Below are positions 9,690-53,667 of a stretch of 64,000 nt of DNA, piece after piece. Origin of the DNA: Jannaschia pagri (GTDB taxonomy: Bacteria; Pseudomonadota; Alphaproteobacteria; Rhodobacterales; Rhodobacteraceae). The stretch is taken from contig NZ_BPFH01000007.1 of NCBI RefSeq assembly GCF_019655435.1, forward strand, positions 124,001 to 188,000. Reading direction: 5' to 3'. The notes under the pieces were generated by a model. The model saw only the letters and a list, made by a program, of their open reading frames with translations. It had not been told where the DNA came from and did no database searches. Both the position numbers and the translations under genes were made by a program. Position 1 is the stretch's first letter, and each line of letters begins with the position of its first letter.

Positions 9690-11294
9690 ATGAAGCTGAC
9701 CTCCTCCCTGATCGCCACCTCAGACCAGGCGCGCGCCAATCGGGCCGCGCACGAGGCCGCCCTGGCCGAGGTCCGTGCCGCCGCCGAACACGCAGCACTG
9801 GGCGGCGGCGAGCGGTCGCGTGCCCGACATTTGTCACGGGGCAAACTGCTGCCTCGTGATCGGGTGGCGGGCCTGCTGGACCCCGGCTCTCCGTTTCTGG
9901 AGGTGGGGGTCTTCGCGGGCCACGACATGTACGATGGGGCCGCGCCCGGTGGAGGGGCCATCGCGGGCGTAGGGCGGGTCCACGGGCGCGACGTCATGGT
10001 TGTCTGCAACGATGCCACGGTGAAGGGCGGCACCTACTATCCGATCACCGTCAAAAAACACCTGCGCGCCCAAGAGATCGCAGAGGAATGCCATCTGCCC
10101 TGCGTTTATCTGGTGGACTCCGGTGGGGCCAATCTGCCCAACCAGGATGAGGTCTTCCCCGACCGCGACCACTTCGGGCGCATCTTCTACAATCAGGCGC
10201 GGATGTCCGCGAAGGGCATCGCTCAGATTGCGGTCGTCATGGGGTCTTGCACGGCGGGCGGCGCCTATGTCCCGGCCATGTCCGACGTCTCGATCATCGT
10301 GCGCGAGCAGGGGACGATTTTCCTCGCCGGGCCACCGCTGGTCAAAGCCGCAACTGGGGAGGTCGTGACGGCCGAGGATCTGGGTGGCGGCGATGTGCAT
10401 ACGCGGTTGTCTGGCGTCGCGGACTACCTGGCCGAGGACGATACCCATGCGCTGGCCCTGGCGCGGGAGGCTGTCCGTAACGTGCAGACGTGCTGCGCGC
10501 CCGCGTTTACTGAGACGACCTTCGACGCGCCCGCCTACGACCCGGAGGAGTTGTTCGACGTCGTCCCCGGAGACTTGCGCACCCCCTATGACATCCGGGA
10601 AGTGATCGCACGGCTGGTCGATGGCTCTCGGTTTGATGAGTTCAAAGCCCGATTTGGCGAGACCCTGGTGACCGGTTTTGCCGAGGTGCAGGGCATCCAC
10701 GTTGGGATCGTCGCCAACAATGGGGTCTTGTTCTCCGAGGCGGCGCAGAAGGGCGCGCATTTCGTGGAACTCTGCTCCCAACGGAAGATCCCTCTGGTGT
10801 TCTTGCAGAACATCACGGGTTTTATGGTCGGACGCCGGTATGAGAACGAGGGCATCGCCCGCCATGGGGCCAAGATGGTGACGGCTGTCGCGTCGACCTC
10901 AGTGCCCAAAATTACTATGCTGGTGGGCGGCAGCTTTGGCGCGGGCAACTACGGCATGGCCGGTCGCGCGTACCAACCGCGCTTCCTCTGGACCTGGCCC
11001 AATTCGCGTATCTCGGTCATGGGCGGCGCCCAAGCGGCGGGTGTTCTGGCCACGGTCAAGCGAGATGCTCTGGAGCGGGCTGGGGAGACCTGGAGCGCCG
11101 AGGACGAAGCCGCCTTCAAACGCCCCACGGAAGAGATGTTCGAGCGCCAGTCGCACCCACTCTATGCGAGCGCCCGCCTTTGGGACGACGGGATCATCGA
11201 CCCCCGCAAGTCACGCGACGTGCTGGGCCTGTCGCTCCGCGCGGCGATGAATGCCCCCATCGAAGAGACACGCTTCGGCGTGTTTAGGATGTGA
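9690..11294 (+). CDS. mccB: Methylcrotonyl-CoA carboxylase, carboxyltransferase (beta) subunit
   Basis: The 534-residue carboxyltransferase transfers CO2 from carboxybiotin to 3-methylcrotonyl-CoA. It has the two crotonase-like halves of acyl-CoA carboxylase beta subunits: an N half with [35 protein letters not shown] and [15 protein letters not shown], and a C half with [29 protein letters not shown] and [19 protein letters not shown]. Together with mccA and ivd this assigns it to methylcrotonyl-CoA, not propionyl-CoA. Its stop codon abuts the first unit of the 90-bp repeat array. Confidence 0.93.
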
Positions 11295-11297
11295 CGA

Positions 11298-11657
11298 GCG
11301 GTCCCGCAGGGATCGGAGGCGCCAGTGGCGCGTCCGAAGCGAGGAACCGTCGGGCGCAAGCCCGTCGGCGGATGCGGAGCATACGAAGCGGTCCCGCAGG
11401 GATCGGAGGCGCCAGTGGCGCGTCCGACGCGAGGAAGCGGCAGGCGCAAGCCCGTCGGCGGATGCGGAGCAGACGAAGCGGTCCCGCAGGGATCGGAGGC
11501 GCCAGTGGCGCGTCTGACGCGAGGAACCGTCGGGCACAAGCCTGTCGGCGGATGCGGAGCATACGAAGCGGTCCCGCAGGGATCGGAGGCGCCAGCGGCG
11601 CGTCTGACGCGAGGAACCGGCAGGCGCGAGCCTGTCGGCAAATGCCAAGTGAGCGGT
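11298..11657 (+). repeat. Four tandem 90-bp repeats rich in short hairpins
   Basis: Four near-identical 90-bp units begin at 11298, 11388, 11478 and 11568; the last is degraded after about 11640. Each unit contains short inverted repeats: TCCC-GCA-GGGA, GCGCC-AGT-GGCGC, CGGGC-GCAA-GCCCG and ATGC-GGA-GCAT (positions 11302-11312, 11319-11331, 11351-11364 and 11372-11382 in unit 1). The third stem varies compensatorily, CGGGC/GCCCG in unit 1 and CAGGC/GCCTG in unit 4, and keeps a GNRA-type loop (GCAA, GCGA) in three of four units. The array fills the 420-bp gap between mccB and the ASCH gene. Because 90 is a multiple of 3, long frames stay open through it on both strands, but none looks like a protein. 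Confidence 0.85.
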
Positions 11658-11714
11658 ACGACCGAGGTCCTCTGCTTGCCTTAGAGAACCACCCCGATCG
11701 GAGGTTTTGAGACG

Positions 11715-12140
11715 ATGCCGTCCCTTCAAGAGATCATCGACGCGAACCCCGATGCCGAGACCTTCCGGTTTGGCGACACCCAGGTGCTCTGTGATGAGAT
11801 CCTGGCGCTCGTTCGAAGCGGGCGGAAGACCGCGACCTGCGAAGCGATGCGTGTCTATGGCGACGGGGGCGATGCCTTCCCTGAGGTTGGCCGCCGAGAC
11901 ATCGCGCTGGAGTGGGACGGGCGCCCCGCCGTCATGGTCGAAACCACCGAGGTGACCATCCGCCGCTGGCACGACATGGATGCCGCCTTCGTCGCCGCCC
12001 AGGGCGAGTTCCGTGATTTGGCCCATTGGCAGACGGGCTACCGCGCGTACTTCGAGCGCACGGGCGGGTGGTCGGATGACATTGAAATCATGTGCGAACG
12101 GTTCCGTGTCGTGACGGACTACGCTGCTCAGGGGGCCTGA
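11715..12140 (+). CDS. ASCH-domain protein
   Basis: A 141-residue protein with the ASCH fold signature. The RSGRKTATCEA segment near residues 34-45 provides the conserved GRKTAT motif. It is followed by the beta-strand ALEWDGRPAVMVETTEVTI and the C-terminal GWSDDIEIMCERFRVV strand. ASCH domains (related to PUA) are proposed RNA-binding modules, and some members hydrolyse N4-acetylcytidine. The gene lies just after the repeat array and its stop overlaps the mccA start (TGATG), so it is translationally coupled to mccA. Confidence 0.75.
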   Translation: MPSLQEIIDANPDAETFRFGDTQVLCDEILALVRSGRKTATCEAMRVYGDGGDAFPEVGRRDIALEWDGRPAVMVETTEVTIRRWHDMDAAFVAAQGEFRDLAHWQTGYRAYFERTGGWSDDIEIMCERFRVVTDYAAQGA

Positions 12141-14071
12141 TGTTTCAGAAAATCCTTATTGCAAACCGTGGTGAGATTGCCTGTCGAGTCATCGACACCT
12201 GCCGTCTGCTGGGTGTGCGAACGGTGGCGGTGTACTCGGACGTGGATGCCCAGGCACGGCACGTTGTGATGGCCGATGAAGCGGTTTCCCTGGGGGGGGC
12301 GGCCCCGGCGGACAGCTATCTGCGGGGCGACGCCATCATCGCGGCCGCGCTGCAAACAGGCGCGCAGGCGATCCATCCCGGTTACGGATTTCTGTCTGAA
12401 AACCCCGCGTTCGTTGAGTTGGTCGAGGCGGCAGGGCTCACGTTTATCGGACCATCTGCCCAGGCAATCCGGGCCATGGGCCTGAAGGATGCCGCCAAGG
12501 ACCTGATGGAGACGGCGGGTGTCCCCGTTGTGCCGGGGTATCAGGGGGACAATCAGGATCCGGCGTACCTGGCCGAGCGGGCTGCGGGCATCGGCTATCC
12601 GGTCCTGATCAAGGCTGTCGCCGGGGGTGGCGGCAAGGGGATGCGCAAGGTCGATACGCCTGAGGCCTTCGGGGACGCTTTGGATGCCGCAGTGTCAGAG
12701 GCGCAAAAGGCCTTTGGCAACGGCCATGTGTTGATCGAAAAGTGGGTGACCACGCCCCGCCATATCGAAGTGCAGGTCTTCGGCGATGGCACCCGCGCGG
12801 TGCATCTGTTCGAGCGTGATTGCTCGCTCCAACGGCGCCACCAGAAGGTCATCGAAGAGGCCCCTGCGCCGGGCATGACCGAGGAGATGCGTGCGGCCAT
12901 GGGGGCCGCCGCCGTGCGCGCGGCCGAGGCCATTGGCTATGCCGGCGCGGGCACCGTGGAGTTTATCGTGGACGGCTCCGACGGGCTGCGCGCGGACCGC
13001 TTCTACTTCATGGAGATGAACACGCGCCTTCAGGTGGAACACCCGGTGACAGAGGCGATCACAGGTGTGGATCTGGTCGAATGGCAATTGCGCGTAGCCT
13101 CAGGCGAGGCGCTGCCAGCGGCGCAGGAGGATCTGACGCTCACGGGTCACGCCTTTGAGGCGCGTCTCTATGCGGAGGATGTGCCCGCCGGGTTTCTCCC
13201 TGCCACGGGGCGGTTGACCCACCTGGCCTTCCCGGATGGCGCCCGGGCCGACACGGGCGTGCGACCGGGTGATGTGATTAGCCCGTGGTATGACCCGATG
13301 ATTGCGAAGGTCATCGTCCATGGCCCGACGCGGTCCACGGCCCTTTTGCAATTGGAGCGGGCGCTGGCATCGACACAGGTGGCGGGCACGGTGACGAACC
13401 TGTCCTTTCTGCGCAAACTGTCGCGGCAAGCTGAGTTCGTGGCCGGTGACGTCGACACCGGTCTGATTGAGCGTGACTTGGACGCGCTGGCGGCGGCCCC
13501 GGTGCCTTGCAGCCGGGCGCGGTCCCTCGCGGCGCTGGGCGCGCTGGGTCTCGACAGGGCGCAGCCGGCAGAGGGGCTGCATCTCTGGGCGCCACTTGGG
13601 TGGACGCAGGTCCTGATGCTTGGGGAGGAGACGGTGTCGGTCCGGGTGGAGGCCCTCGGGGCCGGGCGGTTTCGGTGTGCCGTGGGTGAGGCGATCCATG
13701 ACGTGCGCCGCAACGACGGCTGGGTCATCGACGGCACCCGCATTCCTGCCGAAATCGCACGTGAACCAGGCGCCGTGCATGTGTTCTGGGGGAATGTGTA
13801 TTCGTTCGGCATTCCAGACCCATTGGCCGTCGCCGCCGAGGCTGGCGGGGCCTCTGGTGTGGTAGAGGCGCCCATGCCCGGCCTGGTGAAGGCGGTCTTT
13901 GTCGAGGCCGGGGCGGAGGTCAGTGCAGGGGACCGTCTGGCCGTTCTGGAAGCGATGAAAATGGAGCACACGCTGGTGGCGCCCCGTGACGGGCGCGTCG
14001 AGGAGGTTCTGGTGGCGGCTGGCGCTCAGGTCGAAGCGGGCGCGGCCCTCGTGCGGATGGACGAAGCGTGA
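12140..14071 (+). CDS. mccA: Methylcrotonyl-CoA carboxylase, biotin carboxylase/biotin carrier (alpha) subunit
   Basis: The 643-residue biotin-containing subunit carboxylates its own biotin with ATP and bicarbonate. Visible in order: the biotin carboxylase N domain FQKILIANRGEIACRV, the ATP-grasp glycine loop AVAGGGGKGMRKV, catalytic FERDCSLQRRHQKVIEEAPAP and FMEMNTRLQVEHPVTE, a divergent middle domain, and the biotinyl domain with the biotin-accepting Lys in LEAMKMEHTLVAP near the end. ATG 12140 overlaps the ASCH stop. It is the partner of mccB in leucine catabolism. Confidence 0.94.
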   Translation: MFQKILIANRGEIACRVIDTCRLLGVRTVAVYSDVDAQARHVVMADEAVSLGGAAPADSYLRGDAIIAAALQTGAQAIHPGYGFLSENPAFVELVEAAGLTFIGPSAQAIRAMGLKDAAKDLMETAGVPVVPGYQGDNQDPAYLAERAAGIGYPVLIKAVAGGGGKGMRKVDTPEAFGDALDAAVSEAQKAFGNGHVLIEKWVTTPRHIEVQVFGDGTRAVHLFERDCSLQRRHQKVIEEAPAPGMTEEMRAAMGAAAVRAAEAIGYAGAGTVEFIVDGSDGLRADRFYFMEMNTRLQVEHPVTEAITGVDLVEWQLRVASGEALPAAQEDLTLTGHAFEARLYAEDVPAGFLPATGRLTHLAFPDGARADTGVRPGDVISPWYDPMIAKVIVHGPTRSTALLQLERALASTQVAGTVTNLSFLRKLSRQAEFVAGDVDTGLIERDLDALAAAPVPCSRARSLAALGALGLDRAQPAEGLHLWAPLGWTQVLMLGEETVSVRVEALGAGRFRCAVGEAIHDVRRNDGWVIDGTRIPAEIAREPGAVHVFWGNVYSFGIPDPLAVAAEAGGASGVVEAPMPGLVKAVFVEAGAEVSAGDRLAVLEAMKMEHTLVAPRDGRVEEVLVAAGAQVEAGAALVRMDEA

Positions 14072-53592: not shown

Positions 53593-53667
53593 TGGTGGGC
53601 GATACTGGGATCGAACCAGTGACCCCTTCGATGTCAACGAAGTGCTCTACCGCTGAGCTAATCGCCC
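53593..53667 (-). tRNA. tRNA-Val (GAC)
   Basis: The minus strand folds as a 75-nt tRNA. The acceptor GGGCGAT pairs with ATCGCCC. The D arm contains AGCTCAGCGGTAGAGC, the anticodon arm CTTCG-TTGACAT-CGAAG reads GAC, and the T arm has CTGGTTCGATCCCAG. CCA is encoded (53595-53593). Confidence 0.95.

Follow-up and report, generated by a model that had tools for sequence, protein, structure and literature searches.

The window analysed here is a stretch of 64,000 nucleotides of the Jannaschia pagri genome (contig NZ_BPFH01000007.1, positions 124,001 to 188,000). Within it, an mccB-like carboxyltransferase gene is followed on the same strand by an ASCH-domain gene and an mccA-like biotin carboxylase gene, and a tandem array of four units lies behind the mccB stop codon. 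The genes, the units, and the helices of unit 1 are given below, where R2 is a covariance model introduced in the next section.

9690..11294, + strand: mccB-like carboxyltransferase gene, the upstream cistron (Pfam Carboxyl_trans, E 6.6e-152)
11292..11294, + strand: mccB stop codon TGA, equal to element bases 2-4 and within the basal helix (from the frame and the letters)
11291..11368, + strand: unit 1, the best-preserved copy, overlapping the mccB stop codon (R2 match 11291-11348, E 2.9e-15)
11291-11299 with 11339-11347, + strand: basal helix of unit 1, GUGAC GAGC with GCGA GGAAC (letters read on the copy alignment)
11302-11312, + strand: P2 of unit 1 (letters read on the copy alignment)
11313-11337, + strand: P3 of unit 1, loop AGU (letters read on the copy alignment)
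11347-11368, + strand: P4 of unit 1, GCAA loop (letters read on the copy alignment)
11381..11458, + strand: unit 2, core 11381-11438 (R2 E 1.5e-10), basal GTGA decayed, A-C mismatch in the P4 stem
11471..11548, + strand: unit 3, core 11471-11528 (R2 E 1.1e-10), basal GTGA decayed, P4 loop ACAA
11561..11638, + strand: unit 4, core 11561-11618 (R2 E 3.3e-11), basal GTGA decayed, P4 loop GCGA
11715..12140, + strand: ASCH-domain gene, the next cistron (Pfam ASCH, E 5e-15)
12140..14071, + strand: mccA-like biotin carboxylase gene, a further downstream cistron (Pfam Biotin_carb_N, CPSase_L_D2, Biotin_carb_C, and Biotin_lipoyl)

TRF describes the array as 3.8 copies with a period of 90 bp (positions 11297-11639, 93% matches, 0% indels, score 588), by far the strongest of three TRF arrays in the window, which confirms the tandem organization in four 90-bp units proposed in the initial annotation. 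From the mccB stop, the array extends to about 70 bases short of the ASCH gene at 11715, so that it fills most of the gap between the two genes and not, as had been proposed, the entire gap. Beyond the four units, R2 has no match in the window below E 0.28.

The P4 stem reads CGGGC/GCCCG in unit 1, CAGGC/GCCCG with an A-C mismatch in unit 2, CGGGC/GCCTG with a G-T pair in unit 3, and CAGGC/GCCTG in unit 4, exactly as first noted, and the corresponding loops are GCAA, GCAA, ACAA, and GCGA. These paired changes had been taken to indicate selection on RNA structure. Within the array the argument fails, since the four combinations GC, AC, GT, and AT occur once each and the two sides of the stem are therefore not associated. 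The fold energies of the single units are only partly unusual (z of -1.69, -0.42, -1.22, and -3.18 for units 1 to 4), the whole array has a z of -2.50, and judged from the window by itself, RNA selection would have little support. Open frames of 88 to 271 amino acids run across the array on both strands, as the GC-rich 90-bp unit allows, and neither of the two forward frames tested as protein-coding candidates has a Pfam match. At Rfam gathering scores, no family is reached over the array, the sole match in the whole window being a tRNA (53596-53667, - strand).

Copies in other genomes and their shared fold

Apart from the array itself, a DNA search of the J. pagri genome returns nothing but short, weak matches. 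Plain blastn with the array matches 4 of 20 genomes of the genus and 4 of 295 genomes of the family (one genome per genus; J. pagri is counted in both samples) and none of the plasmid records. Searching the genus at the DNA level reveals another copy in genome G006. An exact-pattern search of the genus yields chance matches for the most part. The family came into view through covariance models. The first model, R1, was built from nine copies from the genus and holds the pairs of the hairpins P2, P3, and P4, no pairs for the helix P1-P1', and no TGA letters; it gives 27 matches at E≤1 in genome G015 and matches at E≤0.01 in 21 of the 295 family genomes, J. pagri included. The second model, R2, holds the GTGAG letters and for this reason favours copies linked to a stop codon. 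A set of 76 matches (A3) was reduced to 65 by dropping 11 reverse-strand or doubtful ones; 43 of those kept were picked by eye and 40 aligned (A4), with 27 of the aligned rows in alignment A5, 9 in A6, and 4 in neither. The 107 genus hits discussed below are the R2 matches listed down to E 8.1e-5 across the 20 genus genomes.

The R1 hits share one plan, composed of the letters GTGAG, a four-base helix strand P1, the hairpins P2, whose length varies, and P3, whose loop has three bases, the return strand of P1, the letters CGAACG, and a hairpin P4. As RNA, the part from GUGAG to CGAAC is a three-way junction, which is then followed by P4. The hairpin described in the initial annotation is thus present, but the folded unit is larger, being the junction plus that hairpin. 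The helix runs on from P1 into the two boxes, where GUGAG and CGAAC pair as G-C, U-A, G.A, A.G, and G-C. P2 is missing from some copies, for example, at loci L172 and L185.

The fold is shown by compensatory changes. In the alignment of 27 curated copies (A5), 93.5% of the cells are paired, and both sides vary in 19 of the 21 pairs. The covariation score of these copies is 0.552, compared to a shuffled mean of 0.158; none of 500 shuffles reaches it, and after sliding the partners the score is at most 0.085. Selection on an RNA fold is therefore supported after all, by copies from many genomes and not by the changes within the array. The pair counts of P2, P3, and P4 lean towards R1, because this model found the copies and already held those pairs, while the covariation of P1 is independent of R1, which held no P1-P1' pairs. 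The unpaired cells of P1 are mainly a G.A plus A.G couple, found in 9 of the 27 copies.

The basal pairs vary as well. Across the genus hits, the pair formed by base 5 is found as G-C, C-G, T-A, and A-T. The pair at base 2 is T-A in all 47 stop-linked hits, whereas among 57 hits not linked to a stop (with the three inner copies of the window omitted) it is T-A in 18 and C-G in 11. These 57 hits have Watson-Crick or G-U pairs in only 75%, 53%, and 65% of cases at bases 1, 2, and 5, a weak basal pairing that is in part due to a subfamily of genome G006 with other letters. Two hits replace the tandem G.A pairs by Watson-Crick letters (GTGAC/GTCAC and GTCTG/CAGAC). When four single copies were folded as single sequences, three formed P1, P2, and P3 together, and the copy at locus L073 did not. 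Of 106 stretches of 40 bases that follow the core, 26 contain a GNRA tetraloop, compared to 3 of equally many control windows, so the GNRA hairpin first seen in the array recurs across copies without being universal.

Two shorter sequences resemble parts of this plan. About 120 nucleotides behind the element at loci L362 and L370, the boxes GTGAG and CGAATG surround a tiny hairpin and are followed by a hairpin with a GCAA loop, which is possibly a minimal form of the element without P2 and P3. In two genera (L096 and L119), a lookalike without P2, GAGCGTGAAG ... TAGCGAAGAACG, reads AIDPVDRS in a long frame and could be either a coding sequence that happens to look like the element or an insertion into a gene.

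R2 at E≤0.1 matches 18 of the 20 genus genomes, with none in G002 and G003, 56 matches in G015, and 24 in G006, and finds no copy in the J. pagri genome beyond the array. At least 113 of the 295 family genomes are matched at E≤0.001, and at least 7 of 385 genomes in a class-wide sample (J. pagri being included in both), where the match in G471 (E 2.7e-4) looks doubtful; counts from searches of more than 40 genomes are lower bounds because filters were stricter there. The element is also found in other alphaproteobacterial families and on Rhizobium plasmids. The plasmid search yielded 33 records with one place each, all from Rhizobium or Neorhizobium, and four plasmid copies scored with R2 each have an E-value below 1e-12. 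Tandem copies occur elsewhere, with five at 72-bp steps in G077, at least four in G085, four at 152-bp steps in G164, and pairs in G311, G166, G059, G054, G030, G201, and G265. Many copies in other genomes are single.

The presence of the element at a given gene end is patchy. It follows sucC in 6 of 20 genomes and mccB in 3 of 19 genus loci, clearly in G000 and G015 and weakly in G010; in G015, mccB is followed at the corresponding position by two shorter units, and a nuoA-like gene by a single copy. The suggested link to the ASCH gene did not hold up: an ASCH homologue is found within 1.5 kb after mccB in 16 of the 19 genus loci, far more than carry the element, and the element also lies beside many unrelated genes. 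Its rarity after mccB and its many unrelated neighbours elsewhere make a role special to the leucine operon unlikely. In the mccB surroundings of 80 named genomes (524 kb), no element was found, the best R2 match having an E-value of 0.83, and four rows flagged near mccB in these genomes by a loose pattern were not confirmed by R2. Other Rhodobacteraceae carry a different recurrent sequence behind mccB (L281, L285, L298, and L040), a GC-rich hairpin with the letters CCTCCGG or CCCCCGG, followed by GTATTTTTG-like letters.

Position at stop codons

The members of this family lie at gene ends in the sense direction, often with the stop codon in the basal helix, where it sits beside the tandem G.A pair. 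In 43 of the 107 listed genus hits, a frame with a minimum length of 150 codons has its stop exactly at element bases 2-4, compared to 27 of 19,726 random positions drawn from these loci; by this count, the other 64 listed hits are not stop-linked. A stricter gene finder links 34 of the 107 listed hits to a stop, compared to 11 of 19,733 random positions. As a control, GTGAG words elsewhere coincide with gene stops in 7 of 112 cases. Among the 65 kept hits of R1, a model that holds no TGA letters, 19 have the stop of such a long frame (150 codons or more) at this offset, with four more shifted by three. The stop is TGA in 39 and TAA in 4 of the 43 linked listed hits, and the final residue is glycine in 32 of the 43 stop-linked frames, compared to 35 of 217 other long frames.

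Between co-directional genes, the element lies in sense in 32 cases and in antisense in 6, and three copies lie between divergent genes. A further 27 elements are classed inside a predicted gene, where some of the frames may be spurious. The next gene is on the same strand for 19 and convergent for 10 of the 34 elements that the gene finder links to a stop. The upstream genes include, by NCBIfam matches above the cut-off, sucC, dnaA, dnaJ, lepA, asd, moaA, and a type I secretion adaptor and, by best matches below the cut-off, nuoA and two sugar-transporter permeases. Some gene ends bear the element in more than one genome, namely sucC in 6, one permease in 4, another permease in 3, and dnaA in 3. 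In 12 of 14 annotated plasmid records, the stop of a gene lies at element bases 2-4, and no annotated stop lies there in the other two; ten of the 12 genes are the same sugar-transporter gene, one is queF, and one is a tricarboxylate-transporter gene.

Relation to known repeats and possible function

Rfam models, searched by E-value at 16 copy-bearing loci, matched none of the copies credibly. BjrC68 (RF02353), a Bradyrhizobium small RNA, is the sole Rfam model to cover one copy on the right strand, at locus L013 (18.6 bits against a gathering score of 39, E 0.62 and 1.1), and leaves the other scanned copies unmatched. A microRNA model matches weakly antisense to unit 1 (E 0.84), and a Brucella model at locus L158 (E 0.019) falls outside the copy. 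A literature search, with most subscription journals outside its coverage, found no title or abstract opening describing the element.

PMC3733652 describes the GTAG- and CGTC-tagged REPs as dispersed short palindromes near 3' ends, between co-directional or convergent genes, and the GTAG REPs as often providing the stop codon of the neighbouring gene. The present element is likewise dispersed and near gene 3' ends, in transcribed space. However, a REP consists of one hairpin and a GTAG or CGTC tag that stays unpaired, whereas here compensatory changes reveal three helices, the GUGAG and CGAAC boxes pair with each other, and a second hairpin follows. We therefore do not file the element under the REP families. 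E. coli REPs within 15 nucleotides of a stop codon are reported in PMC12306157 to stall ribosomes and lower translation; the present element is also near the stop, but here the stop codon itself is part of the predicted helix. The Rhizobium-specific intergenic mosaic elements (RIME), named in PMC2573895, PMC2245857, and PMC2780559, are likewise intergenic structured repeats of Alphaproteobacteria, a likeness that is one of general description.

We lean towards the view that the array consists of four tandem copies, of which units 2 to 4 are decayed at the base, of a dispersed structured repeat that acts on mRNA at stop codons in the manner of a REP. The structure and the position suggest that the function is probably the tuning of message ends. 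A copy would be transcribed together with the upstream gene and would behave as REPs near stop codons do. To read the last codon and the stop, a ribosome would have to melt the basal helix, with the strong P2 and P3 stems opposing it, and termination may be slowed in this way. Once the ribosome has left, the junction could refold and either protect the 3' end of the upstream cistron or set that cistron apart from the following one. The effect would be stronger with the four copies behind mccB, which would shift the balance of mccB versus the ASCH gene and mccA, and repeats may persist where they do little harm or where they help. A bolder version, which we put forward only tentatively and consider unlikely, is that of a widespread, uncatalogued alphaproteobacterial RNA element that holds the UGA stop in its basal helix by means of the tandem G.A pair and closes only when no ribosome is at the stop. 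Such an element would couple termination to message-end stability at dozens of genes, with dnaA, sucC, and moaA among them in some genomes, and tandem copies would tune its strength.

The element does spread in some genomes, as indicated by seven copies examined in G681, which are letter-identical with differing flanks, and by the median identity of copies within G006 (0.783) and G015 (0.706), compared to 0.631 between different sites of different genomes. Together with a copy number ranging from 0 to 56, this fits a selfish mobile repeat without host function, whose fold would serve its own spread, for example, by being recognized as folded DNA, and for which sites after a stop would be the least harmful. 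We regard this as a serious contender of rather low probability, given that the element recurs at the same gene ends in several genomes, in one strand direction and in one exact register. Moreover, copies within G016 (0.613), G017 (0.629), and G007 (0.647) are no or hardly more alike than copies between genomes. The REP transposase Y1_Tnp (PF01797, E≤0.001) is found in only 3 of the 20 genus genomes and is absent from G000 and from G015 with its 56 matches, which argues against this reading and likewise against a REP mobilised by a RAYT. Among the identical G681 copies (L161, L167, L170, L175, L178, L181, and L184), some are nested in a MITE-like sequence with inverted ends, AGTGTTTCCAGGA ... 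GGAAACAC or AGAGCGCATTCAGGA ... GAATGCGC, which shows that another repeat can carry the element along.

The other readings receive little credence. CcsR1-4 of Rhodobacter sphaeroides are four related structured small RNAs in tandem behind a gene. Their letters and conserved loops are not known to match those of the present element. Like them, the array might be a precursor from which small RNAs are released out of the mccB message, or it might be bound by an RNA-binding protein. The tandem arrangement of four similar structured units after a gene, and tandem copies in other genomes, agree with this, but the many single copies elsewhere do not, and we consider the idea improbable. We give slightly less weight still to the idea that the element terminates or attenuates transcription between cistrons: GC-rich hairpins located where genes end would suit it, as would the 10 of 34 stop-linked elements that face a convergent gene, but a same-strand gene comes next in 19 of the 34, and positions 10900-12200 contain no site resembling an intrinsic terminator (GC hairpin and then a T run). 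Least probable by our estimate is a read-through signal, in which the stem directly behind UGA would let some ribosomes go on. The predominance of TGA (39 of 43 linked cases) and the stable structure directly behind it would be expected of such a signal, but the frame after the stop, with a median of 71 codons compared to 108 and 58 in the other two frames, is not longer.

If the favoured reading is true, a large bacterial group carries structured repeats anchored at stop codons, with a fold richer than that of the REP hairpins in the papers cited here. The role of structured repeats at stop codons then becomes testable through comparisons of one gene that carries or lacks the element, that has between one and five copies of it, or that has TGA or TAA in the helix. 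An orthologous copy on plasmid pRL9 of Rhizobium johnstonii 3841 (L370) lacks its middle, about 45 bases between short direct repeats, and this natural deletion can be compared with intact strains.
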